From the NCBI RefSeq assembly GCF_002278925.1, contig NZ_NCJH01000006.1, positions 434,001-498,000 of the forward strand: 64,000 nt of DNA, written 5' to 3'. Below the pieces are notes generated by a model. It saw only the letters and a list, made by a program, of their open reading frames with translations. It ran no database searches and was not told where the DNA came from. The DNA comes from Polaromonas sp. 39-63-25. Lineage in GTDB: Bacteria; Pseudomonadota; Gammaproteobacteria; Burkholderiales; Burkholderiaceae_C. The translations under genes were made by a program, and so were the position numbers. Positions 9,555 through 39,901 of this stretch are shown here, one piece after another; the stretch's first letter is position 1, and each line of letters opens with the position of its first letter.

Positions 9555-10853
9555 TCATGTTTTTATCAACCGATCTTCATATTTAAAGTGTTGCACACCC
9601 TCCGCGATGCTGCTCCGTGATACCTCACGACTATGAAAGCCGTAAGCTAACAGGACGCCCAGCGATACACAGAAAAAATCACCAATGTAGGCATCGTACA
9701 GGGATGAGTTGAACAGGCAAGACACTATCAGTGCAAGCAGCACTGACTGCCCTGCCCGGGCAACAGGGTGATCCATCTTGCGTAGGTCAAACAAGATGGA
9801 TCCAAAAAATGAGCACAAGAGGAGAATTCCACCCACTCCCAACTGCACACCCCATAGCAGAAATTCCTGGTGAGGGTTGCCGTGCGCATAGTAGTAATAA
9901 GAACCCAGACTTTTATGTGCGGGGTTTTTTAATTGCTCAATTCTGTTGAACTCCGTGACCCAACTACCCGCACCAGATCCCATCAAGGGTTTTTCGGCAA
10001 TCGCCCTAACCGATGTTTTCCAGAAATTTAATCTCACGCCGGATGAACTGAGCGGATCGGGTTTGGAAGAATAAGCCGATATCTCCGTCTTGATGACCGA
10101 AAATCTCTGCGCCACCTTGTCAAAACTGAAAAAGGCCACCAGAACTATCAGTGGCGGTACGAATACGGAAGCGAAGCGGTACCTTCCAGGCATAGCCCAG
10201 AAAATAGCCAGAGACACCATCGTTACTGCAACGAGATAACCCGTACGGCCCGAAAAAACAATCAATACGTTTCCCAGCGCCAGGATAGATATAGCGATGG
10301 CCGCGAAAAACAACGGTCGAGTAGGAGCGAGCGTTTTCAAATGCCAGAAAACGGCAGAAACCACCGCGCTCATGATGCCCTGATCCAGATAGCTGGAAAA
10401 GACCGCGTAGGAGGTCTTGGCCATGTTTGCGGTGGCCCACGGAACCGGGACATGAAAATAGAGCAACCAGGCGCTGAGAAGCAAAAAAACTTGCGCACCC
10501 AGGAAAAAGGCCAAGGCATACAAAGCCTCTTGGCGCGTTCGAATCAGTACCAGAAGAGCGGGAATCACCAAAAATTTGCCATACTTGCCAACCGCGCCAA
10601 GCGCACTGTTCATGGGTGCGGTAGTCCAAAGAAGGCTGAATGCAAAAACAAATACCACGAAGGTCGCCAGCCGCGGGGTCCACATCTTCTGCAGAGGCGC
10701 CACGTCCGTAGCACACCGTCCGCCCCTCAAAAGCACAACCAGAACCGCAATCACCAGCAAGACCTTACTGATACTTACAATGGCTAGAGACAGCCCGACC
10801 GACGCGGCAACCAAACACACCAGCCCCAAGCGGATGCCAGGATTTTTAATCAT
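9555..10853 (-). CDS. waaL: O-antigen ligase family protein (WaaL-like)
   Basis: The 432-residue protein is a polytopic membrane protein with about 10-12 hydrophobic segments and the Wzy_C/O-antigen ligase signature. The large periplasmic loop (roughly residues 270-340) contains SSSGVRLNFWKTS, the GSGAGSWVTEF segment and AHGNPHQEFLLWGVQLG. The H of NPHQEFL and the R of GVRLNFW match residues essential in WaaL. The family joins undecaprenyl-linked O-antigen to lipid A-core in the periplasm; some members are polymerases. Because three separate Wzy-like proteins are encoded at 16.8-22.3 kb, ligase is the better guess. The gap to the next gene upstream is 13 bases. Confidence 0.8.
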   Translation of the reverse strand: MIKNPGIRLGLVCLVAASVGLSLAIVSISKVLLVIAVLVVLLRGGRCATDVAPLQKMWTPRLATFVVFVFAFSLLWTTAPMNSALGAVGKYGKFLVIPALLVLIRTRQEALYALAFFLGAQVFLLLSAWLLYFHVPVPWATANMAKTSYAVFSSYLDQGIMSAVVSAVFWHLKTLAPTRPLFFAAIAISILALGNVLIVFSGRTGYLVAVTMVSLAIFWAMPGRYRFASVFVPPLIVLVAFFSFDKVAQRFSVIKTEISAYSSKPDPLSSSGVRLNFWKTSVRAIAEKPLMGSGAGSWVTEFNRIEQLKNPAHKSLGSYYYYAHGNPHQEFLLWGVQLGVGGILLLCSFFGSILFDLRKMDHPVARAGQSVLLALIVSCLFNSSLYDAYIGDFFCVSLGVLLAYGFHSREVSRSSIAEGVQHFKYEDRLIKT

Positions 10854-14471: not shown

Positions 14472-15715
14472 TCCATTTCCTTGTATGTTGCCGACATGCT
14501 GCGCAAGTGCGCCATCAGTTCCTGAACCAACTTGTCGTGGTCAAAATGGGCCTTGAAGTATCTCCGACCATTGGCACCCATCTCGCCGCGCTGTGCGGGT
14601 GACATGCTGTAGAGCCTTAAAACGGCATCAGCCAGTGCTTTTGCATCTTCGGCTCGAACACTGATTCCTGCCTGTGCATCTTCCACGACGCGTGCGCCCT
14701 CGCCATTGAGGCAGGCCACAATTGGCCGGCCAGAAGCCATGTAGGCCTGTATCTTATTGGGTACCGTGGCCGCAAAAATCGGTTCATCGGCTAGGGTCAC
14801 CAGCAAAGCCCCCGCCTTTTGCATTAGACCGGGCATGGTCTCTACAGGAAAGCGCCCGGGTAAATGCAGATTTGTCAGCCCTCGTATGACAACTTGCTCT
14901 CGCATCCAGTCCCATCTGCTTCCCTGCCCGAATACAACAAAGGAAATTTCGGATAGGGACTTCAGCAGCTCGGCTGCTTCCACGATAACTTCTATCGCCT
15001 GCGCCACGCCAACATTACCCGCAAACACCACTGGAAAACCAGTCTCCAGTGCCGCTACCTCAGGCAAAACCACACGCGGGTCTGGCGGCTCGCCGAAAGT
15101 GGCATCTACAGAGTTGGGGTAGTAAACGATGGTCTTGCCCGGCGCAAGCGCGGACACGGCAGCAATGAATGCGCGGGACTGTACCAGGATCAAATCCGAA
15201 TGCCTATAAATCCACCGGACCACCCGCTCAACCCATCGGAGCAAACGCGGGTGACGGATGTAGCCCGTGGCCGACAGGCTGTCGGGCCAGAGATCCTGCA
15301 CCCACAGAACAAGTTTTCGCCGCTTCAATCGGGCCAGGAAAATGCCCGGAATGGCGAGCAGTATGGGTGACAGTCCGTAGACAAACACCACGTCGTATTG
15401 CCGCTTGCGCAGCAGCCACGGCCCAAAAATCAGGCCAGAAAAAATGAATGACAAGTAGTTGAGAGCGAGTCGCCAGGCGCTGCGCGCGCCGCGCGGAAAC
15501 AGCGGCACACGAAATACCGTCGCACCCTCCCAGAATTCAAGCTGTGTGCCCCATGCGCGGTAGCCCTCGGTGATGCGCCCTTCCGGGTAATTGGGCTTGC
15601 CGGTCAATATGTCGACACGTACGCCTTTTTCCACCAGTGTCTTGACAATGTCGTTGATGCGAAAGCCTTCGGGCCAGAAATACTGACTGACAATCAGGAT
15701 ACGCACGCTATTCAC
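14468..15715 (-). CDS. wbuB: L-fucosamine transferase WbuB-like, GT4 family
   Basis: The 415-residue glycosyltransferase has a GT-B fold. Its N terminus reads RILIVSQYFWPEGFRINDIV, followed by LTGKPNYPEGRI and LWVQDLWPDSLSATGYI, all highly characteristic of WbuB. The C-terminal donor-binding region shows TVPNKIQAYMASGRPIVA. WbuB transfers L-FucNAc from UDP-L-FucNAc to the growing lipid-linked unit, and its place beside fnlA-B-C supports this. A hydrophobic stretch (LSFIFSGLIFGPWLL) may attach it to the membrane. The start is GTG at 15715, 8 bases inside the end of the upstream gene. Donor identity is inferred from context. Confidence 0.85.
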   Translation of the reverse strand: MNSVRILIVSQYFWPEGFRINDIVKTLVEKGVRVDILTGKPNYPEGRITEGYRAWGTQLEFWEGATVFRVPLFPRGARSAWRLALNYLSFIFSGLIFGPWLLRKRQYDVVFVYGLSPILLAIPGIFLARLKRRKLVLWVQDLWPDSLSATGYIRHPRLLRWVERVVRWIYRHSDLILVQSRAFIAAVSALAPGKTIVYYPNSVDATFGEPPDPRVVLPEVAALETGFPVVFAGNVGVAQAIEVIVEAAELLKSLSEISFVVFGQGSRWDWMREQVVIRGLTNLHLPGRFPVETMPGLMQKAGALLVTLADEPIFAATVPNKIQAYMASGRPIVACLNGEGARVVEDAQAGISVRAEDAKALADAVLRLYSMSPAQRGEMGANGRRYFKAHFDHDKLVQELMAHLRSMSATYKEME

Positions 15716-16775
15716 ACTTTTCCAAAAGGCTCTTCATAAATTCGGCGGCATTGAGCAGAGGTAAGGCCTCTTCGCTTGCTCCCATAAATCGCTTCACAGC
15801 CCTGGCAATGGATACGGGAGACTCGGGATCAAAGACCTGCTCGGGATCGAGCACGTCTCTTACGAAATCCAGCTCAGACGCCACGACGGCAAGCCCGGCT
15901 TGCCGGGCCTCTATCAGTGGAAGTCCGAAAGATTCGAAGGTCGATGGGAAGATCAAAGCTTGTACCTGAGTATAAAGTTGCTTAATCTGCTCATGAGATT
16001 GCCCCCCCAAATTTTGGAGATTTAACCCGAAATCCAGCTCCTTTTGGGCAATCCAGGCGCACAAGTCGGCGTTGGCATAACCATCCAGCGTCAGCCATAA
16101 GGCCGGGAACAGACCTTCCTGGGCCAGCAGGCACCAAGCCTCAATCAGCTGGCGATGGTTTTTGTGCGGCTCTCCGGAGCCTACATATAGAAATATGCTG
16201 TTAACTCCCGTCACGGGCTGAGGCGGTGTCAATGATCTCTGGTAGCCGTCGCTCACACTGACAAAGGGCAAAACGTAAACAGGCTTTCCACGTGCTTTGC
16301 CCGAGGCCCGCAAAATCGCTTTCATGGAGGGGGTCTGCACAACAAAAGCAGAGGCGTTTGCCGCCTTTGCAGAAAGCCACCAGCGCTCAATTTGCAGTCT
16401 TAGCCGGGCTTTGAGGGGGAAATCCTTCAGGCTGACGTCATCAATCAGGTACCTGTTTTGAATCAGAACAATGACGCGGCCTGCCGTCCTGAAGAGCGGC
16501 GGCAGGTTACCGAAGCACAAAACAGTGTCGTTTGACGATGTGGCCCCGGCCAACCACCACTCCGCGCGCAGGCGTTGCCATAGCGAAGGCTTGACTCGCC
16601 TGATGTCGGTGCTCTCCGCCAGACCCGGCGGCAAGGCCATTCTTGTATCCAGCTGCGCGGAGACTGCCAGGTGGGGGAGACGAGTTTCGAGCAGGGCGCG
16701 GAGCAATGTCGCCCCGCCGCCGTGATGCACGTTTGTTGCATGCAGAAAAAATCTTGCTGAAATATCCTCTTTCAA
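15708..16775 (-). CDS. Glycosyltransferase, GT4-like
   Basis: The 355-residue protein has GT-B features. The N-terminal half reads LHATNVHHGGGATLLRALL, and the C-terminal half has FLYVGSGEPHKNHRQLIEAW and the family's FPSTFESFGLPLIEARQAG donor-site block. The acceptor and sugar are unknown. Translation appears to start at TTG (16775), which overlaps the TGA of the upstream membrane-protein gene (TTGA junction); no suitable ATG exists in the first 45 codons. It ends inside the wbuB start, so the two are translationally coupled. Confidence 0.82.
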   Translation of the reverse strand: MKEDISARFFLHATNVHHGGGATLLRALLETRLPHLAVSAQLDTRMALPPGLAESTDIRRVKPSLWQRLRAEWWLAGATSSNDTVLCFGNLPPLFRTAGRVIVLIQNRYLIDDVSLKDFPLKARLRLQIERWWLSAKAANASAFVVQTPSMKAILRASGKARGKPVYVLPFVSVSDGYQRSLTPPQPVTGVNSIFLYVGSGEPHKNHRQLIEAWCLLAQEGLFPALWLTLDGYANADLCAWIAQKELDFGLNLQNLGGQSHEQIKQLYTQVQALIFPSTFESFGLPLIEARQAGLAVVASELDFVRDVLDPEQVFDPESPVSIARAVKRFMGASEEALPLLNAAEFMKSLLEKCE

Positions 16776-18751
16776 ACCGAACCCCGTTTGCCACGATTCG
16801 CTACATGTTTGAGGTACATCCCGGCTACCTTGTCGGATTGCGCCATCCAGACCAGAATTACAAAACCGAAGATCATGCTGTAAAACGGAATGTCTTGCCG
16901 AGGCGTTACGCCAAATTGTGTAATCGTGTTTGCCATGGTCAAGCCGAACATCGAGCAGAGTAAGGGATTGGATGTCAGTTTAAAAATCAATTGCTCACAG
17001 ACTTGCAAAATCAAAGCCAATATCGCCATACCTAACACAACCACCCACAGTGAGCCACTGAAATAAAAGAAGGCTGCAGCACCCGGCAAGCTGGCGAATT
17101 GCCAGATGGTGGAATCCATCCGTCGGTAATGCGAGTTGCTGATTTCCTGAAATTTGGTGGTCTTGCCAATTTCTCTTTTTTCCTTGGCGGCATCGAGTAG
17201 TAATTTACTGCTCTTGTCTGGATATGCATGCACAGCCATCACGCCCTCCAAGCCAATCCATCGGTCGACGGCCAAAGTCAGTATGCGTGAGAATGCGCCC
17301 GTACCGATTTGATAATAAAGTTCGCTGATTAGCTTACTTTTACTTTCTAACAGATTGGGAGGAGGTGAAGGCGGCGGCGCAGCATTTTTGACATTAACAA
17401 CTTTGTCTCGAACTACCAAATCATCACTTTTGATTTCATTTTTTGATAGAACTTTTTCAAGTGGTATTTGATCAGCAAGCCATTCACCAAGAAGTTTCTT
17501 CTGTGGCCCTCCGCTCAACAAAATACGCTCCAATTGAGTTTTCTCAGCAAGCCATTCATGAGAATAGAATTCTTGCAGATTTTCTTTTAATAAGAGCTTC
17601 TCTAGCTGCGCTTTTTCAGTGAGTAAATCTTGCAGATGCCCTTCCTGTCGATCTCCTTGCAGGATTAGTTTTTTTACGCGCGCTATTCCGCCTTCGAGAA
17701 CCTCCAGTCGGGACTGCTTTTTTTGTCGTTCCAGTTGAGCTTTCTCGGCAAACAGTTCAAGAAGATGTCCCTCATGGGGTTCCCCTTTTAAAATTAACCT
17801 CTTTGCCCTAGCTATTCCACCTTCAACAACTTCCAGGCGGGTCACTCGTTTTTGTTCTTCTGTGGTGAATCCACCAGCATGCGGATACATATAAGCACGG
17901 AAGGTCGTAACACCAGATATGGAAATCACCATCAGGGCGGTGAATGCCAAAAAGAGCGCAGCAAGTTTTATTCGTGACGCTTTTACAAGTAATTTCCTAT
18001 TTTCAAATAATGCAAATAACTGTGGAATGGTGTGAAAAATATATATTCCCCGACTTAACAGGCTGCCCGTGGAGGTTACTGCTTCAATAAGCAGCGCATA
18101 AATAGACGCTGAAATTCCCTTCTTCAACAATATCTCCCACCAAAGCAGGATCGTCAGCAGAAGGGCGCCGCCTATACTCACTTGCCACGCGATTAATGCA
18201 TTCAACGGCCAAGGCAATATCGTGCGTGGAACTAAGCCGATTTGCTGTATTCCCAATATTAAATTCAATGCGGCAATAGCAATTATTCCGAATAAAGAGA
18301 CTGGCCAGAGCCACCTCCTGGCAGCTGGGTACCAAACTGGTGCTTTCGCTTCATCTGCCGTAACCGCTCTGGAGTAGTTTTTCCGGAAGGGCGAAAGTAA
18401 TAATTTGCCAAGCATGACACCTGCACTCGCCGAGATGGCAACCCATAATACGCTGTTCCATGCAGTTGAAGATCCGTCAAAACCACCTGTCGGTTCCAAA
18501 TAAGGATAGTCAAGAAGCAAATGCGCGGTTATTTTCCCCCAAAAACCTAACCACAACGCCACAGATAAAAAGAGATAGCCGTAATGCGTGCGCTTCCCAA
18601 TTGAACTCAACAGCATCAACCAAAAGACCACCGAGAAAAGCATATAAAGCAGCTTCGACCCGGGATAGTTATTTGCCCCTGTGATGATCAGTGCTGCCGT
18701 GAACAGGCAGATGACAAAAACGAGACTGAATTTGAATAATTTTTTTGACAA
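16772..18751 (-). CDS. Wzy-like polytopic membrane protein A, with a long repeat insert
   Basis: I do not recognise a named family. The 659-residue protein has about 10-12 hydrophobic segments and shares blocks with its two upstream neighbours: LWLGFW, GIQQ-GLVPRT-LPWPLNAL, LLSRGIYIFHTIPQLFAL, DRWIGLEGVMAV, EISNS-Y, QFASLPGA, and MANT-Q-G-PRQ near the end. Size, topology and operon place suggest an O-antigen polymerase. Residues about 304-435 form a charged, probably coiled-coil insert: two 43-44-residue units (RLEVVEGGIARAKRLIL and RLEVLEGGIARVKKLIL, each followed by an EGHL-EKAQLE half) and two more degenerate 22-residue half-units. A proline run (PPPSPPP) follows at about 459-465. The start is TTG at 18751 with AGGTG five bases upstream. 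Base composition is AT-richer than the flanking sugar genes. Confidence 0.6.
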   Translation of the reverse strand: MSKKLFKFSLVFVICLFTAALIITGANNYPGSKLLYMLFSVVFWLMLLSSIGKRTHYGYLFLSVALWLGFWGKITAHLLLDYPYLEPTGGFDGSSTAWNSVLWVAISASAGVMLGKLLLSPFRKNYSRAVTADEAKAPVWYPAARRWLWPVSLFGIIAIAALNLILGIQQIGLVPRTILPWPLNALIAWQVSIGGALLLTILLWWEILLKKGISASIYALLIEAVTSTGSLLSRGIYIFHTIPQLFALFENRKLLVKASRIKLAALFLAFTALMVISISGVTTFRAYMYPHAGGFTTEEQKRVTRLEVVEGGIARAKRLILKGEPHEGHLLELFAEKAQLERQKKQSRLEVLEGGIARVKKLILQGDRQEGHLQDLLTEKAQLEKLLLKENLQEFYSHEWLAEKTQLERILLSGGPQKKLLGEWLADQIPLEKVLSKNEIKSDDLVVRDKVVNVKNAAPPPSPPPNLLESKSKLISELYYQIGTGAFSRILTLAVDRWIGLEGVMAVHAYPDKSSKLLLDAAKEKREIGKTTKFQEISNSHYRRMDSTIWQFASLPGAAAFFYFSGSLWVVVLGMAILALILQVCEQLIFKLTSNPLLCSMFGLTMANTITQFGVTPRQDIPFYSMIFGFVILVWMAQSDKVAGMYLKHVANRGKRGSV

Positions 18752-18920: not shown

Positions 18921-18976
18921 AAGAAGAAGAAGAAGAAGAAGAAGAAGAAGAAGAAGAAGAAGAAGAAGAAGAAGAA
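18921..18976 (-). repeat. Trinucleotide microsatellite, (TTC) about 18 copies on the coding strand
   Basis: The plus strand shows an uninterrupted AAG tract of 56 bases (18 full units plus two bases). It begins 6 bases after the stop codon of membrane protein B and about 170 bases before the start of protein A, inside the 231-base spacer 18752-18982. The rest of that spacer is AT-rich with no recognisable gene. Confidence 0.95.
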
Positions 18977-18982
18977 ATTTTG

Positions 18983-20770
18983 TTAATTGATGCTGCTGCA
19001 AAATCTGATTTTTTTAAATATCTTGAAAAGAAATTCAGATTGCAGCAGCGAGATAACTAGAACTCCCAGGAGAATCATGAAGAAATATGGCAAATTCTGC
19101 CTTGGTGCCGCGCCTAATTGGGCTACTGTATTAGCCATAGTCAATCCAACTAAAGCGCAAAGAAACGGATTTCCTGTGACGGCGAAGATGGCGCGTTCAC
19201 TGAGTAGAAGAAGCAAAGTAAGTCCAAACATGCCTGCGACGACAAACCACAATGAACCACCGACAAGAAAAAATCCCATGGCTCCCGGGAGACTGGCAAA
19301 CTGATTTTTTGTTTTATCCATCTCCGCATACAGAGAGTTGCTTATTTTTTGATATGAAGTAATTTTCCCAACTTCACGCTTCTCGGTAATGGCATTTGAG
19401 AGCGAATCAATATTTTTTTCGCCGTGTGACTGCACGGCCATTACTCCCTCTATGCCGATCCAGCGATCGGCTGCAAGTTGAAGAATATTGGAAATCACTG
19501 TTTTTATCGAGCTGGCCATTTTTGCAGAGACCTCAAGAACAGTTCCTGACGAAGTATTGTCATAAGAATGGCCGGATGTACTATCGGTAGGCATATCCGA
19601 AGTTAATCTGTCTTTTTCTTGCAGCAATTTTTGCAGTTGCATCTCTTGGTTTTTTCCGGCTTTTATCATCATCGTTATTTCAGCGATGGCACTTTCCAGT
19701 ATCTGAAGGCGAGGCGACGTGTTTTGGGAGGGGGCGTTTTCCGCTTGTGTTGTCGATCGATTGCCTGGCGCGTCAATGGCAGAATCGCTTCGCGATACTT
19801 GCCAATAAAAATCTGATCTTAGGGCTGTGACGGCCCCAATCGAAATAACAAAAAGACAGGCGACGACCAAGCCAAATGCGACAGCCCCTAGCCTTCCAAT
19901 GCCGTTCAGATGCCTACGGTTATGCAAAAGAGCCATTAGCTGCGGCAGTACGTGAAAGATGTAAGCAGCACGGCTTAAAAGAGAGACCGTAGAGGCAAAT
20001 GCCTCCAGGAGAATTGCATAGGCCGGCAAGGTCGCACGCCGCCTCAGTCCAATATCCCAATGCAACAGGGTTGCGACGCCCATAGCGGAGCCTATGCTCA
20101 CAGTCCATGATATCAATGCATTGAGTGGCCAGGGCAGAACGGTTCTGGGGACCAAGCCGGCCTGCTGGATTCCGAGAGCGGCGTTCAGTACAGCAAGAGA
20201 AACAATGACAAACAACAGGCCCACCCAAAGCGACACTCTGGCTGACGGGTACCAGCGCGGCACATGGGTACTGTCAGACTGTATTTCTGCCACATCATTT
20301 TTCCTTCGCCAGCAACAAACAGCATGCCCCGCAATGACTGCGACGGCACCGACAATTCCGACCCATAGCACGTTGTCCCATGCCAATTTTTCGCCCATTG
20401 AATAGCTTACTGGCGCTATCCATGTCGCCCGGTACCAAGGGTAGCCTGGGCCGTAGAAATCTCCGACGGGCTCTACAAAAGGGTAGTCAAATAAAAGATG
20501 TACGGTGAACTTGAACCAGAACCCGAGCCAGAGAAATAGCACGAGAAAAAAGTAACTGTAGCTGGCTCGTTGAAAAAACCCACTGATCAATAACAACAGG
20601 AAGGCCGCGGAAAAAAGTAGATAGACCAGACCGGACGAGGGGTATTTTGTCGCGGCAAGGCCTGTCAGGACACACCAGAAAATAAGACCAGCAGCGATGG
20701 CAAGTTTTCTTGCTTTGCCAGCAGGCATATCGCTTGGGGAATCAGTCGCCATTTTCCAAAGCCGGTTCAC
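18983..20770 (-). CDS. Wzy-like polytopic membrane protein B, with one repeat unit
   Basis: This 595-residue paralog of proteins A and C has the shared blocks LWLGFWFKFTVHLLFDYPF, ALGIQQAGLVPRTVLPWP, SLLSRAAYIFHVLPQL, DRWIGIEGVMAV, QKISNSLYAEMD, QFASLPGAMGFF and LTMANTVAQLGAAPRQ. The loop between about 320 and 430 holds a single copy of the repeat (RLQILESAIAEITMMIKAG then QLQKLLQEKDRL, about 353-391), flanked by Ser/Thr/Asn-rich sequence. It is probably a polymerase-like protein in the inner membrane; no catalytic residue can be named. The start is GTG at 20770 overlapping the TGA of gene C; an ATG at codon 7 is possible. A TTC microsatellite follows its stop. Confidence 0.6.
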   Translation of the reverse strand: MNRLWKMATDSPSDMPAGKARKLAIAAGLIFWCVLTGLAATKYPSSGLVYLLFSAAFLLLLISGFFQRASYSYFFLVLFLWLGFWFKFTVHLLFDYPFVEPVGDFYGPGYPWYRATWIAPVSYSMGEKLAWDNVLWVGIVGAVAVIAGHAVCCWRRKNDVAEIQSDSTHVPRWYPSARVSLWVGLLFVIVSLAVLNAALGIQQAGLVPRTVLPWPLNALISWTVSIGSAMGVATLLHWDIGLRRRATLPAYAILLEAFASTVSLLSRAAYIFHVLPQLMALLHNRRHLNGIGRLGAVAFGLVVACLFVISIGAVTALRSDFYWQVSRSDSAIDAPGNRSTTQAENAPSQNTSPRLQILESAIAEITMMIKAGKNQEMQLQKLLQEKDRLTSDMPTDSTSGHSYDNTSSGTVLEVSAKMASSIKTVISNILQLAADRWIGIEGVMAVQSHGEKNIDSLSNAITEKREVGKITSYQKISNSLYAEMDKTKNQFASLPGAMGFFLVGGSLWFVVAGMFGLTLLLLLSERAIFAVTGNPFLCALVGLTMANTVAQLGAAPRQNLPYFFMILLGVLVISLLQSEFLFKIFKKIRFCSSIN

Positions 20771-22257
20771 GATTTACCTCGCCAGGCATGAGTGACGAAT
20801 CGGTTAAACATGGCGGATTGGATTACCCAAATAATTACCACTGTGGCAGCAATCATTCCCAAGTGCGGAACTAGTTGCCGCGGGGTAACGCCCAGTTGCG
20901 CAATCGCATTTGCGACGTTGACCCCATACAGCGCGCATAAGGTAACGTTTCCTGTCATCAAGAGGACCAGCCGTTCGCTGCACATCGCAACAAAAGTTAG
21001 AAAAAACATGCCAAAAATTACATACCAAGCACTGCCAGAATAATATAAAAAGGCAGTCGCCCCCGGTAAACTTGCAAACTGATATTTGGAGCCATCAACC
21101 TCTTGATATGCCGAATTACTTATTTTTTGATAAACATCAACATTATCAATGGATGATTGGACCATCAGTGCATTAAAGAAAAGCGCGGGGCTTTTTTTTG
21201 GGTATGAAGATACGGCTAATACCCCTTCTATGCCTATCCAGCGGTTGATAATCAACTGGTGTAGCAATTTCAATCGAATTGAAGATGTTGCGGCAAGCTC
21301 ATTTTTAGAATAGGAAGCTGGTAGCTTATCAATCGAAGCTATTGAGCCGATTTTGGGCGAGTAGTAAACATCCCTTAATAGGGAAACACTAATTACTGAT
21401 CCAACAAAAAGAATAAAAAATACAATGACTATTAATATAGCATTTTTTTTATGCATCGAAAAAATAGAACCTCTATTAACTATTAACGCAAGCAACTGAG
21501 GTATTACATGAAACAAATAGACGCTTCGACTAAGCAGTGAGACTGTTGAAAAAAGAGCCTCTACCAATATCGCATAGACTGGAATCACTAGATTTTTCCT
21601 AAGGCCTATATCCCACCACAAAAAAGTAGCAGCAGCCATACTAAATCCAGTGCTCAGCAACCAGTAGGTCACAGCATTAAGCGGCCAGTACAAACGAGTA
21701 CGGGGAACTAATCCGCTTTGCTGAATCCCGTATATACCGTTTAATAGCGCAAGTCCGATAATACTAGCGATCAAAATCATCCATAGCCACGATCTAAAAC
21801 GCGAGTACCAGATTGGTGGTATTATTTTTTTTCTTATCGCCACAGTAGAACCAAATTTCGTGAATTTGTACAGAAGGCGTGCAAACATTACTGCGGTGCT
21901 TCCAGCAATTGCGATCCAGAGTGCATGGTCCCATCCAGAAGCTGATTCCAAAAAATATCCTACTGGCTCTTCAAATGGAAAATAACCAAGCAAAAGAAAA
22001 TTGGCAGTAAATTTAAACCAAAAACCTAGCCAGAGAAATATTGTTAAAAACAAGTAGCTGTACGTGCTCGGATAGTAAATCCCGCTGAGCAAAAGTGTAG
22101 AAAAAGAAACTGTAAAAAGTAGGTAGATGAATTTCGACCCGATGTAGCCGATGAATCCAGCTGTAAACAGAAATGCGAAAACTGCGAGCGCGATCCAAAC
22201 ACCCAGCTTGGGTGAAAAAGGAGCAGACAGGAGCGTTGAGGATGTCTTAACTTGCAT
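20767..22257 (-). CDS. Wzy-like polytopic membrane protein C, without repeat insert
   Basis: The 496-residue, first-transcribed member of the trio is the most compact. It shares LWLGFWFKFTANFLL, IYGIQQSGLVPRTRLYWP, SLLSRSVYLFHVIPQLLAL, NRWIGIEGVLAV, QKISNSAYQEVD, QFASLPGATAFLYYSG and VANAIAQLGVTPRQ with the others. The loop that carries the repeat in A and B is only about 45 residues here (about 296-338) and has none. This is probably the basal form of the family. A Wzy-type polymerase role is inferred from topology and the cluster. The gene is notably AT-rich. Its start (ATG 22257) lies 2 bases after the GT10 gene's stop. Confidence 0.6.
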   Translation of the reverse strand: MQVKTSSTLLSAPFSPKLGVWIALAVFAFLFTAGFIGYIGSKFIYLLFTVSFSTLLLSGIYYPSTYSYLFLTIFLWLGFWFKFTANFLLLGYFPFEEPVGYFLESASGWDHALWIAIAGSTAVMFARLLYKFTKFGSTVAIRKKIIPPIWYSRFRSWLWMILIASIIGLALLNGIYGIQQSGLVPRTRLYWPLNAVTYWLLSTGFSMAAATFLWWDIGLRKNLVIPVYAILVEALFSTVSLLSRSVYLFHVIPQLLALIVNRGSIFSMHKKNAILIVIVFFILFVGSVISVSLLRDVYYSPKIGSIASIDKLPASYSKNELAATSSIRLKLLHQLIINRWIGIEGVLAVSSYPKKSPALFFNALMVQSSIDNVDVYQKISNSAYQEVDGSKYQFASLPGATAFLYYSGSAWYVIFGMFFLTFVAMCSERLVLLMTGNVTLCALYGVNVANAIAQLGVTPRQLVPHLGMIAATVVIIWVIQSAMFNRFVTHAWRGKS

Positions 22258-22259
22258 AT

Positions 22260-23300
22260 CTAATCTGCAAAAAAAACATGATTGAGAGAGTCATAAAATT
22301 TCAAGCCATCCTCGCTTCGAATAAAGTTCCGACCGGCGTTTCGCATCTTCATGATCTCGGCTGGAGTGATTTTCATCATCGCGTCGTACGCTTCTGACCA
22401 CGACTTAAACGCTCTGCAGTCAACGTAAGTATTTGACGGTACAAGGGCCGCGATATCAGGAGCTCCAAGGTAGAGTGGGATGGTCCCCGAATAGAGACAA
22501 TCAAATATTTTCTCGGTGACGTAGCCTTTCATGGCCATGTTCTCGAAACACAGGCTGAACTTGTACTGGCTCAAAACTTCGTATTTCGAATCGCATGCCC
22601 CCTTGTAGATCGACATCAGCGTCTTGCGGTTTCTCCAGTAGGGCAGCCACATCGAGGCGCGCGACCACCATTTAGCCCAGCCTCGGCCATACAGGTCGAC
22701 GACACCGAGCGGCGCTAGAGCAGCCATCGCTTCAATTCGTTTGCTGTAAAGTTCGTGCGGGACTTTTCGCGGTATGTGATTGCCATTGATCACGACGATG
22801 CGATCAAGGCGCTCAGACCGCTCCCAACACTGAAGGATCACTTCATCGCGCGGTTGCGGCCAATACAGCTGCCGAAGTTTGGAGAGATCAACTCCCTTCA
22901 GACTGTAGCCATCTCCTATGGTGTTGTGAACATACACAGTTTCAAAAGCTGCTGTCAGCTCTGGCAAAGCTTTGTAGAGGCGTGGATCTACCACCGGTGG
23001 TTCGAAAATGATGAAGGCCTTCAAGCACACGTCGGCTCGTTCAAGCAGCGCTTTGTAGTTGTCGAGAACGCCCAGCGAATAATAGTTGCTGACCGCCTCA
23101 CCCTTTGGCGCTTTCATGAGATAGTCCGCAGTCCGCAGATCTTTTCCTGCTGCTCTGAAGGCTTGGCGCACGCGTGCATAGGGAACGAGGGAATCGTCCC
23201 GGTTGAGCGTCGCATTCGATATGTCGAACAGCCTGTCTTCGTAGTAGGCCGGCGAAGGTGGATCAACGTATGTCATATCGGGGGCGTTGTCGGGAATCAC
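22260..23300 (-). CDS. GT10-family alpha-(1,3)-fucosyltransferase-like glycosyltransferase
   Basis: The C-terminal half carries the GT10 donor-site signature FSLCFENMAMKGYVTEKIFD followed by CLYSGTIPLYLGAPDIAALV, diagnostic of GDP-fucose-type alpha-1,3/1,4-fucosyltransferases. The N-terminal acceptor domain is divergent (VYVHNTIGDGYSLKGVDLS is visible). The product is about 346 residues from the GTG at 23300, which overlaps the upstream TGA by 4 bases; an ATG at 23276 is the alternative. The donor may be GDP-colitose rather than GDP-fucose, because the cluster encodes ColD next to Gmd and the adjacent reductase looks ColC-like. No membrane segment is seen. Confidence 0.85.
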   Translation of the reverse strand: MIPDNAPDMTYVDPPSPAYYEDRLFDISNATLNRDDSLVPYARVRQAFRAAGKDLRTADYLMKAPKGEAVSNYYSLGVLDNYKALLERADVCLKAFIIFEPPVVDPRLYKALPELTAAFETVYVHNTIGDGYSLKGVDLSKLRQLYWPQPRDEVILQCWERSERLDRIVVINGNHIPRKVPHELYSKRIEAMAALAPLGVVDLYGRGWAKWWSRASMWLPYWRNRKTLMSIYKGACDSKYEVLSQYKFSLCFENMAMKGYVTEKIFDCLYSGTIPLYLGAPDIAALVPSNTYVDCRAFKSWSEAYDAMMKITPAEIMKMRNAGRNFIRSEDGLKFYDSLNHVFFAD

Positions 23301-24325
23301 TTGTTGGTCATCCTCTTCATATGGATCAATGACGCCTTGGCAAGGCGATGGCATCGCAGCGATAACATCATTTTCAGATACAGGCCCAGCGCCAGCACGG
23401 CCATGCCGCGCCGCGTCTGCCAGGCGGCCTTCAGCGCACTCATGGAAAAAATGTCGGGGCACAGTGCCGCGGCCTGTTCAGGCTGGTCCTGCAGCAGCGC
23501 GTTGACGGCCCGCATCACCTGGTCCCTGCGCTCAAGGCGTTGGTAATTCTTCAGGTCGTGCGCAGTCAGCAGGCTCCGGACGTCTGGTTGGGCCAGATAG
23601 TGATCAACGACACTGAAAAATGCGGCGCGACCGGTATCGACACGCGCATTGGCCGACCACTGGCTCCGGCTGATACGGTAGCGCATGGTTGCTTGCGGAA
23701 GGATACCGACCGGACCGCGCTGCAGCATCCTGAGCCACACGTCGAGGTCAGCGCTTGATCCGAACAGCTCGCCTCGCCACGATTTGATGTCCTCCTGGTA
23801 GACGCTGGTCAGCGCCATCACGCTGGGGCAGATCAGGAAATTCGAATGCTCCAAAATGGCCTTGAGCACCTCTGGAAAATAATGCAAAGGCCCGCCTGCG
23901 GCAAGATTCTTCGGCTGGCGAATCTCTCCGATGAGCAGGTCATGCTCGTTGATCAGCAACGCCTCCGTAAATACCGCGCCGGCCTGCGGGTGCTGCTCCA
24001 AAAACGCCACCTGGGTAGCCACCATTTCGGGCTCGTAGATGTCGTCAGCGTGGTAGATAGCGGTGTACTTGCCTTTGGCAAGCGCTATGCAGCGGTTGAA
24101 ATTTCCTTCAGCGCCCGCATTGACAGCATTGCGGAACAGGGTGATGCGTTCATCGGGGAAGCTCTCCACGACAGCCGCGGTGCCGTCGCTGGAGTTGTTG
24201 TCGACGACATGGACCAGAATATTTTGGTATGTCTGACTTAACACCGAACGGATTGTTGCCGCGATCGTTTTCTCCGCGTTATAGGTCGGAATGCAGATGC
24301 AGACTAATGGTGTGAGGTTAGACAT
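23297..24325 (-). CDS. Family 2 glycosyltransferase
   Basis: The 342-residue protein has a GT-A fold with the family start VCICIPTYNAEKTIAATIRS, the VVDNNSSDGTA segment and the metal-binding YHADDIYEPE (DxD-type HADD). A second acidic block is SADLDVWLRM. A hydrophobic stretch near the C terminus (VLALGLYLKMMLSL) may associate with the membrane. The ATG at 24325 overlaps the stop of the upstream gene by 8 bases; longer in-frame sequence has no family features. Sugar and acceptor are unknown. Confidence 0.88.
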   Translation of the reverse strand: MSNLTPLVCICIPTYNAEKTIAATIRSVLSQTYQNILVHVVDNNSSDGTAAVVESFPDERITLFRNAVNAGAEGNFNRCIALAKGKYTAIYHADDIYEPEMVATQVAFLEQHPQAGAVFTEALLINEHDLLIGEIRQPKNLAAGGPLHYFPEVLKAILEHSNFLICPSVMALTSVYQEDIKSWRGELFGSSADLDVWLRMLQRGPVGILPQATMRYRISRSQWSANARVDTGRAAFFSVVDHYLAQPDVRSLLTAHDLKNYQRLERRDQVMRAVNALLQDQPEQAAALCPDIFSMSALKAAWQTRRGMAVLALGLYLKMMLSLRCHRLAKASLIHMKRMTNK

Positions 24326-25316
24326 AAGCAAGCCCCATGCGTTCAAACACCCGTGCAAAGCGTTTTTGGAATGTGTGCTCGGCCAAGGTTCGCTGATGCC
24401 CCGCACGGGCTACAGACTCCCTCAGGGCGTCGTTCGCCAGATAGAGTTTGACTTTTTGAAGCAGATCGTCCGGGTCCAGATACACACCAATCTCGGCGCC
24501 GATCTCATAGTGTCTTTCCAGCCCCTCCACGTAATAGGAAAGCTGAAAGCCACCAGAGCCATTGATCTCGAAATGCCGGGCTTTTAGCTGCTCGACAGAC
24601 TTTGGCGAGCGAATGCGGTTGATCAAACCTCTGGGAGATGCGAGCAGATAACGCGCATCCCAGGACGCTGAATTGGACATGTTCAGATTGATACGGCTTT
24701 CATTGAACAGCGCCACCATCTGCTCGTGGGAAACGATGCCGCCAGGCCAGCGATAGCCTACGGCTTTGACGGCGAAACCCTCCTTGTGCAAGCGTTTGAT
24801 CAGCCATTCCCGGTAAGGATGCCACGCCCCCACAAACGACACGTCGTATTGTTTAGGTGAACCGGTCTCACGATAAAGCTTTTCGTTGCAGCCAAACGGG
24901 AAGTGAATGGCGTTGGGCAACCCTAAAGCCGCGTATTTCCTTTCGCCATAAACATCGGGGGTGGTAAAAAAATCAAAATGCCGGGCCCAGAATTGGGAAA
25001 ACTCGACGCGCCAGGTATCGTCATGAAAGAAGCACAAGGTGCGGGTGTGCTGGCGCAGTTGGCTCACCGTGGCGGGGTCGAGCTGGTCGGTATACAGCGA
25101 GAACATGGCCAAATCCGGCTTGGAAGACTGCACCAGTGCCAGCAACTGGTGGTTCATCTCGCTCTTGCCCAGGCGCTTGAGCTCAGCCATGTAATCAAAC
25201 ATGGCCACATCGTGGCCGAGATCCTTCAGGCTTTGGTAGAAGTTGTAGTACTCATAGGAGTGTCCACGTGAGGGATCGCCATAGTCATACTCCATGCATG
25301 CAAGCAGAATTTTCAT
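24318..25316 (-). CDS. CgeB-like glycosyltransferase
   Basis: The 332-residue GT-B protein resembles the CgeB/YkvP group. Its N terminus is KILLACMEYDYGDPSRGHSYEYY, shown here only in part: KILLACMEYDYGDP. Further marks are LCFFHDDTWR, FPFGCNEKLYR, YDVSFVGAWHPYREWLIKRL and the C-terminal RHFEINGSGGFQLSYYVEGL, the characteristic donor-site block of this group. The sugar it transfers is unknown. Its ATG overlaps the stop of the flippase gene by 4 bases. Confidence 0.8.
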   Translation of the reverse strand: MKILLACMEYDYGDPSRGHSYEYYNFYQSLKDLGHDVAMFDYMAELKRLGKSEMNHQLLALVQSSKPDLAMFSLYTDQLDPATVSQLRQHTRTLCFFHDDTWRVEFSQFWARHFDFFTTPDVYGERKYAALGLPNAIHFPFGCNEKLYRETGSPKQYDVSFVGAWHPYREWLIKRLHKEGFAVKAVGYRWPGGIVSHEQMVALFNESRINLNMSNSASWDARYLLASPRGLINRIRSPKSVEQLKARHFEINGSGGFQLSYYVEGLERHYEIGAEIGVYLDPDDLLQKVKLYLANDALRESVARAGHQRTLAEHTFQKRFARVFERMGLAYV

Positions 25317-26830
25317 AAGACCTTGTCATGCCTGGGCAAAAACGGATAGAGCAGCCAATAAAACATGGGCAGGAAAGCCAGGCCGGTGGCCACTATCAAA
25401 AGTCCGGCAGTGATCAGGCTTTCAGTACCCCCCAGCATCCAACGGCCTGCGGTGGCAATCAACAAAAGCACCAGGCCCATGGCTGCTCCCTTCAGGAGAA
25501 GCCGGTAAGGAAGCCTCATCTCAAGAATCACGATCATCATGTAATGCATGGCCACCACCATGCCAATGCCCGCGAGCGAGCGGGCCAAACCGACCCCGTG
25601 CGCGCCCATTGCGGGCGCAAGGACCCAGATGAGTGCAATACAGATTACCGCACCCAATAAATTGGGCAGCAAAAGCAGACGGGTTTTCATTTTGGCGTGA
25701 GCAGACATGCTGTAAACGCCCGCAAGCACTCTGGCCCCTTCAGCCAGAACACCCCAAACCACAAATTGTGATGCGGACTGGTACGCAGGGCCCACCATGA
25801 AACGTGTCAACTCGGGCGCCAGACCCGCAAGCAGGAATGTGACAAGCATGAGCGAGGGCAAAATGGCTCCGGCGTATTTATTCCAGGCCAGTGACTGCTC
25901 TGCCAGGCTGCTGGTGCTCACACGTTTATAGAACCGGGGCTGAAAGTAAGTGGTCAGTACAGACTCGAATGCGGCCATCAAACCGGCGCTGATGCCGTAA
26001 CCGGCGACAAACAGTCCCAGTGCTACAAGACCCAATGAGTCCGCAACAAAAAACCGGTAGCCCTGGGTTTGCAGCCAGTTAAAGCCGACCGAGATGGCGA
26101 CCGGCCAGGCAAAGTCAAAAAGCAGCCGAAGCTGGGGGCGAGAGATTTTTGTAACAGGGCCTTCAGGGCGCAATTTGTCAAAAAACAGTTTGACCCCAAT
26201 CACAGCAAGCACAGTTTGGCCGATGAGCAGACCCAACAACCAGTACTCGGCTGTCGGCTGAAACATTTCAACCAGAACGAACGAACTGGCCAAGCCGGCG
26301 CCTATGGTCGCCAGAGTCAACGCAATAAAGCGACCCCGGAATTCCAGCAAATTAAGTGAGGGTATTGCGGTCTGATTGACAGTGTTGAACAGCAAAGATC
26401 CTGAAACAAGTACCAGCAGCCATGCGGTATTGAATTGAAAGCCAAAGGCGTGGATGCTGTTGAGCGCCGCAAGCGTCAGCGCGGCGATGACACATACGCC
26501 GAGCAGATAGACCCAATGCAACTTGAGGTAATATTTGGCCCGCCCGAGTTCGTCCCACGCATGGAGGCGGCGATTGATGAACATACCGATCGGATTAACG
26601 AGAAACAGCGCAAAAAAGGCCGTCGCCGCCGTGATCAGCGAAAGGCGGCCCATCTCACTTGGCGGCAAATAAGTTGTGGCCACCCGCATCACCAACAGCA
26701 GCAGGATAAACTGGGCCGCACGGCCAAAAATGATGGTCAGCAAGTGGTAGCCCTGCCTGTCGGTTGGATTATGGTGAGTAACAGTACAAGCCGGGTTGCA
26801 CGCCCAAAAATAATATAGAACAAGCTTCAC
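25313..26830 (-). CDS. wzx: Wzx-type polysaccharide flippase
   Basis: The 505-residue protein has about 12-14 transmembrane helices in the MOP superfamily pattern. The N terminus (HLLTIIFGRAAQFILLLLVM) begins the first bundle, and the second bundle starts near FDFAWPVAISVGFNWLQTQG. Wzx moves undecaprenyl-diphosphate-linked repeat units across the inner membrane for polymerisation. It starts with GTG at 26830 overlapping the upstream TGA and ends inside the next start codon. Its presence, with Wzy-like proteins and a WaaL-type ligase, indicates Wzx/Wzy-dependent assembly. Confidence 0.85.
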   Translation of the reverse strand: MKLVLYYFWACNPACTVTHHNPTDRQGYHLLTIIFGRAAQFILLLLVMRVATTYLPPSEMGRLSLITAATAFFALFLVNPIGMFINRRLHAWDELGRAKYYLKLHWVYLLGVCVIAALTLAALNSIHAFGFQFNTAWLLVLVSGSLLFNTVNQTAIPSLNLLEFRGRFIALTLATIGAGLASSFVLVEMFQPTAEYWLLGLLIGQTVLAVIGVKLFFDKLRPEGPVTKISRPQLRLLFDFAWPVAISVGFNWLQTQGYRFFVADSLGLVALGLFVAGYGISAGLMAAFESVLTTYFQPRFYKRVSTSSLAEQSLAWNKYAGAILPSLMLVTFLLAGLAPELTRFMVGPAYQSASQFVVWGVLAEGARVLAGVYSMSAHAKMKTRLLLLPNLLGAVICIALIWVLAPAMGAHGVGLARSLAGIGMVVAMHYMMIVILEMRLPYRLLLKGAAMGLVLLLIATAGRWMLGGTESLITAGLLIVATGLAFLPMFYWLLYPFLPRHDKVL

Positions 26831-27981
26831 GCCCCCCTGTTGTTTAGCGATTGGTTGAGAAACCGGTTTATCTGAGCGGGAAGACTCTGGTCATAGGTAA
26901 GATCCTGCAAGGTAATGTTGGACGAATAATGCGGGCCGATCTCGCCCAAGTTTCTGATGAAGTTGTAGTTCAGATTTTTGAGCAAAAACTCGTAAACGCC
27001 AAACTGCTTGGTATAGGGCATAAGGTGATACAGAAATATGGGCTGACAACCTTGCAGTAGCGCTTCGAACAAAGCTGTGCTCATGGTTCCGGCGACCTGT
27101 CTAGGCCGATATTCGTTCAGTGTTTCAAGCACCGACATCGACTGGGCCACTATGCTGATAGTGTCACTTTGAAGAGACATATAAAAATTGAAGTTTTTGT
27201 TTTTCGAGATCCAGTCCGATGGATGAATTTTTATATAGACCTTAGAAAACCGGGTGGCCAGTACCTCGATAGCCTTTCTCGATAGACTGCGCTCCTCGCT
27301 TTCGAGTCCGAAACACGCGAAATTCACCGCAAAAAAAACGATGGCATCCGATTCCGACATGTCTTTGTCGCGGACGCTATCCGGCAGGGTTCGATAGCCA
27401 AGGACCGGAATATTTCGGTCAATCGGCAATTTCATTCCAGAAAACACATGGTCTATATATCTGTCATTGATTCGGACATGCATACCTTCCTGGCCGGCAC
27501 ATGCATGCGCTGGTATTCCCATCGTCCGAAAAATAAGATTGAACACCTGCATCAGAAAAAAGTTGCGAAATCTTTCATGCTTCTTGTGAAAGGGACTGTT
27601 GTTGAAATAAAAGCCGATACCCTCGTCAAAAAGGAGAGTGCGCCCTCCGGCCTTCTTCATTTTTTTCGCAAACAGTGCATTGTTGAGCTGATACTCCGTG
27701 ATCAGGATCAAGGTGTCTGCCGGCTTGAAGGTGAAACGCTTGGCCAGAGATATTTGATGCAGGAATGACCGGATGTATGAGCGCACGCTTTTATATCCAC
27801 CGCCGCTGCAAAGGGGATGAGAGCTGAGTTCCTCGATCTGCATACCTGATTGAGGTACCAGCGTATTTCTCCTCGCAACATGCGATAGGAATACAACGTC
27901 GGAACGGTCGAATCCACACTGACTGATGATCGAAAGTGCAAGTTGTCCATGGTAGTCGTTATCGACCGATATGTAGATCAT
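26827..27981 (-). CDS. Bacterial sialyltransferase/polysialyltransferase-like protein
   Basis: I see the three short motifs shared by bacterial sialyltransferases of the GT38/GT52/GT80 type: an acidic pair plus glycine (D119-E120-G121 in TLLFDEGIGFY), HP (H252-P253 in VYIKIHPSDW) and a serine/threonine pair (S300-T301 in AGTMSTALFEALL). The order and spacing fit that fold. The 384-residue protein has no signal peptide. A nonulosonate transferase role agrees with the cytidylyltransferase and NeuB-like genes at 36.7-39.9 kb. No full-length family match is claimed. The start ATG 27981 lies 127 bases downstream of the H-NS-like gene, an interval with no other feature. Confidence 0.55.
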   Translation of the reverse strand: MIYISVDNDYHGQLALSIISQCGFDRSDVVFLSHVARRNTLVPQSGMQIEELSSHPLCSGGGYKSVRSYIRSFLHQISLAKRFTFKPADTLILITEYQLNNALFAKKMKKAGGRTLLFDEGIGFYFNNSPFHKKHERFRNFFLMQVFNLIFRTMGIPAHACAGQEGMHVRINDRYIDHVFSGMKLPIDRNIPVLGYRTLPDSVRDKDMSESDAIVFFAVNFACFGLESEERSLSRKAIEVLATRFSKVYIKIHPSDWISKNKNFNFYMSLQSDTISIVAQSMSVLETLNEYRPRQVAGTMSTALFEALLQGCQPIFLYHLMPYTKQFGVYEFLLKNLNYNFIRNLGEIGPHYSSNITLQDLTYDQSLPAQINRFLNQSLNNRGA

Positions 27982-38008: not shown

Positions 38009-39901
38009 TCACAGCGTGCCTTCCAGTTTTTCCAGCGCAATCCAGAAGCCTTCGCCGCCGTTTTTGTGGCCTTGCCAGATTTCGGGGATGAAGGATGCCT
38101 GGGGGCAACCTTTGCGAAGAATTTCTCCGAGGCGCACAAAGTCGATATCGCCCTCACCGATTTGCAGCCCCTCCCCGTTCAGGCCCTCGGCGTCGCCTAG
38201 GTGAAGATGCGCAGACAGCGGTGCGATCTTCTCGGCGAAGTCGTAAAAATCGATGCCGAAATGGTTGCAGGTCAGACGCGTGTGCGAGATGTCGAAGCAC
38301 ATGCGCAAGTGCAAACGCTTGCACCATTCGACGATTTCCTCGATGCGCACAAAGATGTTCTGGAAGCGCTGGCCACCAAAATGCCAGGGGAAGGGGGCCA
38401 TGGTCTGAGGAATCAGTTCCACACCGTCCATGTCCAGTTCGGTCAGGCTTTTCGCAAACCGCTCGTAGTAGGCCTGAATCACCGACGAGGGCAATGGCTC
38501 GTCCATGGTGAAACCGCCAATGTTGGCGACGATCATGGGGCGCGTGGTTTGTGGAAAGAATCGTTTCAAATCTCGTGTGATGTTGATGACACGCTGCGTT
38601 TCCTGCACCGACTGGGCGCGATAGGCTTCATCAGGTGAAGCCAGGTCCATCAGCCGGCTGTTTGCAAACAGCTCTGGTGCATGGACGACAAAACCACAGG
38701 GGTAAGTGCCTTTCAGAAAATCATCGGGCTTGAGCTCCATGTCGGAATAAGACAAGTGAAACTCAAACAGATCGGGCTTGATGCGCGCGTTGTATTCCTG
38801 GAAGTCGTGGTACCTGACCGGTACACCCCAAGGGCGCTGGAATGAGTAAGGGCGCGGCTCGATGCGCTCGTCCCTGAGATCAGACGGGTAAAAGAAGTCT
38901 TCAAGGTTCAGGTCATGCTGAAGGGTACGCCCCAACAGCTTCTCGTAGTGCTGGGGTGAAAGCCCCTGGCCCGGACTGCGCACCTGAACGTGTTCGGGCT
39001 TGATGACCGTCCCCTTCGTCAATGCCATCGCTGCCACCAGGCTTTTGCCCAGGTTTTCACGGTTGATCATTTCGCCCTGGGAAATGCGGCGTTCGCGCCC
39101 ATCACCCAGTGCCTGTTCGATCTCGCGGATGCCCTCGATGAGGCGCTTGAACTCTGCATGCTCCAGGCTGGCGGCATGGTCCGGGCCTTCCATGCTGCGA
39201 TCCAGCGTAAAGTGGCGCTCCACGACGCAGGCGCCCAAGCCCACTGCGGCCAGAGTCACGGCTATGCCGCGTTCGTGGCCGGAGTAGCCGACCAGCGGAT
39301 GAATCCCGCGCAGCTTTTCCATCCATCTGAGGTGGATGTCATGCAGCGGTGCCGGGTAGGTGCTGTTGCAGTGAAGCAATACAAACCCGGCTTTTCGTTT
39401 GTTCAGGAAATCAGCGGTGATCTGCACTTCTTCGCGCGAGCTCATACCGGTTGAAAGAATCAGCGGCTTGCCGGTGGCGCACAGTTTTTCCAGCAGGGGC
39501 AGATTGGTCAGGTCGGCCGACGCCACCTTGTAGGCAGGCACACCCATGCCTTCGAGCACATCGACGCTTTTGTTGTCCCAAGGCGTGCAGAGGTAGAGGA
39601 TACCCTTGGCCGCGCAATACGCGGCCAATTCCCGGTGCTGGTCTATCGAGAGTTCGAAGCGCCGCAGCAGGTCGAGCACGTATTCAGTGCCTAGATCTTC
39701 TCCGTCTTTGCGCAGGGTGCGTTGGCGATAGACCTCGTCGAGGTTGCGCATCTGGAATTTGGCGCAATCCGCGCCCATCTCCACCGCGAGGTCGACCATC
39801 TGCAAGGCGCGCTCGTAGCTGCCGTTGTGGTTGTTGCCGATCTCGGCAATCACAAAAGCCCGGTCCGCTCCGATCTCAAAGTTGGCGATGCTGATAGTCA
39901 T
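38009..39901 (-). CDS. neuB: NeuB-type nonulosonate synthase fused to a TIM-barrel isomerase domain
   Basis: The protein is 630 residues, nearly twice the usual NeuB length (about 340-350). Residues 5-270 form the PEP-condensing barrel: FVIAEIGNNHNGSYERAL, KFQMRNLDEVY, YKVASADLTNLPLLE, LILSTGMSS, LHCNSTYPAP, GYSGHERG and the VVERHFTLDRSMEGPDHA block. Residues about 282-338 are the SAF domain (SLVAAMALTKGTVI, SPGQGLSP). Residues about 355-630 form a second barrel like the xylose-isomerase/AP-endonuclease group, with CFDISHTRLTCNHFG, HLHLGDAEGLNGEG and FIPEIWQGH. NeuB joins a 6-carbon N-acyl aldose to phosphoenolpyruvate; the added barrel might isomerise or epimerise the substrate. The gene overlaps the kinase gene by 4 bases. 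Confidence 0.88.
   Translation of the reverse strand: MTISIANFEIGADRAFVIAEIGNNHNGSYERALQMVDLAVEMGADCAKFQMRNLDEVYRQRTLRKDGEDLGTEYVLDLLRRFELSIDQHRELAAYCAAKGILYLCTPWDNKSVDVLEGMGVPAYKVASADLTNLPLLEKLCATGKPLILSTGMSSREEVQITADFLNKRKAGFVLLHCNSTYPAPLHDIHLRWMEKLRGIHPLVGYSGHERGIAVTLAAVGLGACVVERHFTLDRSMEGPDHAASLEHAEFKRLIEGIREIEQALGDGRERRISQGEMINRENLGKSLVAAMALTKGTVIKPEHVQVRSPGQGLSPQHYEKLLGRTLQHDLNLEDFFYPSDLRDERIEPRPYSFQRPWGVPVRYHDFQEYNARIKPDLFEFHLSYSDMELKPDDFLKGTYPCGFVVHAPELFANSRLMDLASPDEAYRAQSVQETQRVINITRDLKRFFPQTTRPMIVANIGGFTMDEPLPSSVIQAYYERFAKSLTELDMDGVELIPQTMAPFPWHFGGQRFQNIFVRIEEIVEWCKRLHLRMCFDISHTRLTCNHFGIDFYDFAEKIAPLSAHLHLGDAEGLNGEGLQIGEGDIDFVRLGEILRKGCPQASFIPEIWQGHKNGGEGFWIALEKLEGTL

Follow-up and report, generated by a model that had tools for sequence, protein, structure and literature searches.

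Three adjacent genes, here called A, B and C, lie on the minus strand of a 64,000-nucleotide stretch of the Polaromonas sp. 39-63-25 genome (contig NZ_NCJH01000006.1, positions 434,001 to 498,000; the whole stretch is referred to as the window, and positions are counted from its first letter). All three genes are open, and their products share 42-45% pairwise identity. Very probably they are 12-helix membrane proteins of a sugar cluster, with one periplasmic site that tolerates changes in length and at which a selected helical repeat multiplies. As to their role the odds are about even: the joint proposition that A, B and C are polymerases and that the repeat array is an arm contacting a partner or the polymer may equally well be right or wrong.

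The repeat array and its multiplication

The insert of protein A consists of two units of 43 residues and two half units of 24 residues, and spans window positions 17839-17438, inside the interval 17430-17850 where a previous sequence-only reading had placed a growing coiled-coil repeat. Its best ungapped self-match scores 149, whereas 300 shuffled versions average 28 and never exceed 43; the strongest self-match offsets fall at 43 and 24 residues. Protein B carries a single unit that aligns with the second unit of A over 36 residues without gaps (score 75; 17/37 residues identical). A chance resemblance is ruled out by the shuffles, none of 2000 reaching this score (maximum 46); the next best loop of the family, after those of A, its two orthologs and B, scores 33. 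The equivalent loop of protein C, with 43 residues, is of about the usual length for the family (median 41) and therefore contains no insert. The series proposed in the sequence-only reading, with no copy in C, one in B and, in A, two full copies followed by two halves, is thus confirmed.

When the DNA of the full units of A is compared, 75/126 bases and only 11/42 third codon positions agree, so that the duplication within A must be old and a recent event is ruled out. The divergence between units also explains why the array escaped Tandem Repeats Finder when the window was scanned at score 30. Orthologs of A are present in Sideroxydans (locus L033), with five units (192-base period, 3.5 copies, 93% matches), and in a member of the Nitrosomonadales (L034), with two (129-base period, 1.9 copies, 82% matches). 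In Sideroxydans, units 3 and 4 are identical at 109/111 bases, and this array has expanded very recently. The growth of the array by tandem duplication within one loop, as the sequence-only reading had suggested, is therefore shown at the sequence level, and the comparison of loop length and copy number among relatives that it recommended reveals numbers that do differ.

A stepwise lineage leading from C through B to A, on the contrary, could not be upheld. In trees built without the loop, A and its two orthologs form a clade with support of 100/100, but B and C are not separated, since all three pairings survive the approximately unbiased test (A clade with B, p 0.48; A clade with C, p 0.26; B with C, p 0.45). 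The two orthologs belong to the same clade as A, and that of the Nitrosomonadales also has GT10 and GT4 genes on its flanks, as in the window; they differ from A in their number of units and in their upstream paralogs, which group elsewhere in the tree. Within the taxonomic family of Sideroxydans, orthologs of A were found in 2/158 genomes, namely these two, a third genome having just a weaker relative.

From an evolutionary perspective, the interspecies nonsynonymous divergence (dN) of units 1 and 2 is 0.13-0.19, compared with 0.17-0.30 for two core parts of the protein and 0.37-1.17 for the linker between the array and the RWIGxEG motif, and synonymous divergence is at least 1.35 or saturated (the estimate covers 37 codons per unit in three orthologs). 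As amino acid change in the units is no faster than in the core, with synonymous sites near saturation and the linker diverged, the units look selected and probably have some function.

The loop preceding RWIGxEG

The AlphaFold2 (AF2) model of protein C (predicted local distance difference test, pLDDT, 89.3; predicted template modelling score, pTM, 0.90) contains 12 helices, and the charge pattern predicts a cytoplasmic N terminus. In the model of protein A (pLDDT 86.1; pTM 0.80), the insert is folded into short helices, and each full unit contains a turn. The RWIGxEG motif, flanked by invariant positions, is carried by the large loop that joins helices 9 and 10, which is predicted to be periplasmic from the charge pattern over the 12 helices rather than by mapping. 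A cytoplasmic insert, regarded in the sequence-only reading as fatal to its own proposal, is thus not what is predicted.

Variation in length is concentrated in the first half of this loop. Among 53 members of the family, the distance between the invariant R295 and the invariant R339 (C numbering) ranges from 19 to 415 residues, with a standard deviation (sd) of 61.5, compared with 0.0-2.8 for the remaining inter-helix stretches and 1.5 for the other half of this loop. More than 60 residues precede RWIGxEG in 14 of the 57 family frames collected from the window and from 50 loci extending up to ~8 kb per side. These inserts are of several unrelated kinds: Ala/Pro-rich in Pseudomonas (L070, L072, L074, L075 and L077), Asn-Ala-Gly repeats in L078, poly-Gln in L057 and helical units in the A clade. 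The Asn-Ala-Gly tandem repeat, in the loop of a Pseudomonas member (L078, 7905-9545), is perhaps the source of a weak collagen match obtained for 1/47 members. A second insertion of ~18 residues is found in protein B, in the short helix 3-4 loop, also predicted to be periplasmic; among the 53 members this loop has a maximum of 37 and a median of 19 residues.

No match at E 0.001 was obtained with Foldseek against the PDB or against viral models. The best sequence matches to solved structures (family, E 0.21; repeat, E 0.63) are taken as chance, and a PHROG lectin match of the Sideroxydans repeat (E 8e-5) was put down to likely helix composition.

Gene cluster and distribution of the family

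The genes A, B and C (Table 1) are surrounded by a large surface-polysaccharide cluster that also encodes sugar-nucleotide enzymes and glycosyltransferases, along with one Wzx-like and one WaaL-like protein, and the GC content around them goes down to 0.44-0.50, compared with 0.66-0.70 in the first 6 kb of the window. In a hydropathy scan of the 54 open reading frames (ORFs) of the window, the other polytopic proteins were the WaaL-like and Wzx-like ones, a 656-residue Polysacc_synt_2 protein and an ABC transporter; by elimination among these, A, B and C would be the polymerase candidates of the cluster. The gene order of the window, i.e., GT10, family members and GT4, recurs in the Nitrosomonadales locus, where the GT4-type gene follows the ortholog of A; the GT10 gene adjoins family members there and in locus L029.

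Table 1. Features of the window discussed in the text (aa, amino acids)
Feature	Position	Strand	Remarks
Protein A	16772..18751	minus	659 aa; ORF and translation; Wzy-like polytopic membrane protein with repeat-bearing loop
A full unit 1, aa 305-347	17711..17839	minus	offset self-score period 43; helix-turn-helix in model
A full unit 2, aa 348-390	17582..17710	minus	26/42 residues identical to unit 1
A half unit 3, aa 391-414	17510..17581	minus	period 24; DNA direct repeat, spacing 72
A half unit 4, aa 415-438	17438..17509	minus	most degenerate copy; period 24; pLDDT mostly <60
Protein B	18983..20770	minus	595 aa paralog; one repeat unit
B single unit, 36 aa	19604..19711	minus	score 75 against A unit 2
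Protein C	20767..22257	minus	496 aa paralog; insert-free
C equivalent loop without insert, R295 to R339	21241..21375	minus	model confidence <50 at aa 303-311
GT10 family glycosyltransferase	22260..23462	minus	Pfam PF00852; adjoins C
GT4-type glycosyltransferase	15708..16775	minus	Pfam PF00534; after A
Wzx-like flippase candidate	25313..26830	minus	Pfam PF13440
Wzy_C protein, WaaL-like ligase candidate	9555..10853	minus	Pfam PF04932
Perfect TTC microsatellite, 18.7 copies	18921..18976	minus	between B stop and A start

The TTC tract lies ~170 bases upstream of A, and just one other perfect TTC tract of at least 7 copies, with 8, is present in the genome; the tract upstream of A could vary in length and change the expression of A. 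Elsewhere in the window, a 630-residue ORF (38009-39901) joins NeuB, SAF and xylose isomerase-like TIM barrel domains, and another (26827-27981) matches the alpha-2,8-polysialyltransferase family PF07388 (E 2.9e-10), in a cluster that also has a NeuB-type gene.

For A, B and C no Pfam or NCBIfam family was found above cut-off. With Pfam at E≤1 there is no match for A and C and just an unrelated DUF for B (E 0.14), and no model of either database matches more than 1/47 members at E 1. In the Polaromonas genome itself, A, B and C are the only members detected at E 1. The family is present in 1/87 genomes of the genus (the Polaromonas genome itself), in 2/399 of the taxonomic family (with one distant relative), in 7/399 of the order and in 4/398 of the phylum, the Polaromonas genome being counted in both of the latter. 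The 50 loci, obtained by a scan of named genomes, belong to Pseudomonas, Burkholderiales, Nitrosomonadales, Bdellovibrionota, Elusimicrobiota and others. Among 89 immediate neighbours, the families Glycos_transf_1 (15), Epimerase (15), GDP_Man_Dehyd (14), RmlD (11), Glycos_transf_2 (8) and GT10 (4) were recorded, one protein possibly matching several of them. Wzx-like genes are present in the window and in L074, in the latter case recognized by a weak match to MatE.

In many loci, proteins of ~800 residues adjoin the family members; those of L053 (5411-7831) and L041 (9373-11865) are 38% identical, and the former begins with a hydrophobic stretch and has no Pfam or NCBIfam match. As a guess, this neighbour might be a flippase fusion. 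In L087 (G678 contig 105), the family member is seemingly split in three, and one of the pieces contains an internal TAG. A plasmid search with C gave three weak partial matches, all annotated as hypothetical protein. No close viral relatives of A were confirmed; a degenerate DNA pattern of the repeat unit matched five viral contigs, at the level of the pattern alone.

Possible roles of the proteins and of the array

Like the Wzy O-antigen polymerases (TIGR04370, oligosaccharide repeat unit polymerase), the proteins of this family are polytopic, have invariant arginines and a large loop predicted in the periplasm, and are encoded in a sugar cluster that includes a Wzx-like gene. Of the features by which a Wzy may be recognized, the number of membrane helices (10-14) and the large loop in the periplasm are predicted, and a cluster with a Wzx-like flippase and glycosyltransferases is present. 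According to the review PMC12004945, the Wzy proteins of P. aeruginosa and S. flexneri have RX10G and RX15G motifs in their periplasmic loops, PhoA/LacZ topology and Wzy-Wzz complexes have been described for Wzy, and no Wzy structure has been solved to date. At the level of sequence, the resemblance of A, B and C to these polymerases is slight. Just 1/47 members matches TIGR04370 (E 0.0022), with no curated match above cut-off in the family, and the profile comparison with Wzy (hhalign) gave 44%, compared with 96% for a positive control pair. RX10G was found in 0/53 and RX15G in 1/53 members at R244, and both in 0/53 at R339; R295 was examined by alignment column alone, and the motif may not be universal. 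As regards topology, two short outer loops are also net positive in the charge analysis. A further difference from Wzy is the hypervariable, repeat-bearing stretch before RWIGxEG. Since topology and context fit, the sequence evidence is weak and RX10G/RX15G are absent at the two invariant arginines examined, the proteins are called Wzy-like, as candidate members.

It is somewhat unlikely that the family represents another periplasmic glycan transferase, i.e., a ligase or a GT-C lipid-linked sugar transferase, instead of a polymerase. In WaaL O-antigen ligases (PF04932; PDB 7tpg), a conserved histidine of the periplasmic loop has a role. The WaaL-like protein of the window sits in its alignment (A7) with the invariant R and H of that set, whereas the alignment of the A, B and C family (A5) has no histidine that is invariant or conserved at 90%, and the comparison of the two profiles (hhalign) gave 5%. 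Furthermore, the Polaromonas genome already has two Wzy_C proteins, one of them encoded by the WaaL-like gene of the window, which is separate from A, B and C and has no detected sequence relation to them. The number of copies also speaks against this alternative, as one family member is found in 46/50 loci and two in 4/50.

With regard to the array, it is unlikely that it represents a neutral loop, in which the site accepts any insertion and the units are made by slippage and recombination. The unrelated Ala/Pro-rich, Asn-Ala-Gly and poly-Gln inserts at one site and the very recent duplication in Sideroxydans would be in line with such an origin, but units 1 and 2 are conserved between species like the rest of the protein, whereas the adjoining linker is not. 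A built-in ruler, in which the helical array sets chain length instead of Wzz and the copy number sets the modal length, an idea that goes back to the sequence-only reading, is quite improbable. The absence of a wzz gene from the window, pointed out in the sequence-only reading, extends to the whole genome, where no match to PF02706 was found at E 0.01; the same search on 14 named control genomes gave matches in 10, 8 of them above cut-off. The Sideroxydans genome, with five units, likewise has no Wzz-domain match at E≤1e-4, and the loop is predicted to be periplasmic and lies beside a conserved motif. In the Nitrosomonadales genome, however, with two units, a single 757-residue frame matches the Wzz domain, so that 1/3 repeat-bearing genomes has such a protein and a clean link between the repeat and the absence of Wzz was not found. 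PF02706 is also matched in 28/41 family-bearing genomes searched among those of the 50 loci (E 1e-4; 25 above cut-off), and the family as a whole is therefore no replacement for Wzz. On these grounds, the distribution of Wzz decides neither for nor against the ruler idea. The helical region of A shares with Wzz a predicted periplasmic location, but no Wzz match was obtained for A against Pfam at E 1, insert included, and its short helices, with turns and in repeated units, lie in one loop of a 12-helix protein and are not flanked by two membrane helices, unlike the Wzz bell, described in PMC7809406, a paper on WzzB, as an octamer of two-helix protomers. The complete version, in which a polymerase with its own length-setting periplasmic helical array, evolving in copy number by tandem duplication, replaces a missing Wzz, appears very improbable; if true, the length of the surface polymer would be retunable by mutations in repeat number. 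Among open-licence papers, none was found on a repeat-bearing Wzy.

The explanation preferred here is that of a polymerase with a contacting arm. A, B and C would be inner-membrane enzymes with 12 predicted helices, most likely the Wzy-type polymerases of the cluster, in which the stretch before RWIGxEG, in the loop between helices 9 and 10, emerges by comparison as a site tolerant to length. In the lineage of A, the insertion at this site is an array of helical units growing by tandem duplication, which most likely would form a periplasmic arm near the active site that may touch a partner (the ligase, the flippase or another paralog) or the growing polymer, a contact that would tune the enzyme.

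The way in which polymerase and co-polymerase jointly set the length of the polymer is still unsettled. In this family, the number of helical units at a single site next to a conserved motif runs from zero through one and two to five, a natural series that makes it testable whether the size of a periplasmic arm changes the polymer. The proteins come from Pseudomonas, Burkholderiales, Bdellovibrionota and others, and Pfam and NCBIfam have left the family unnamed.
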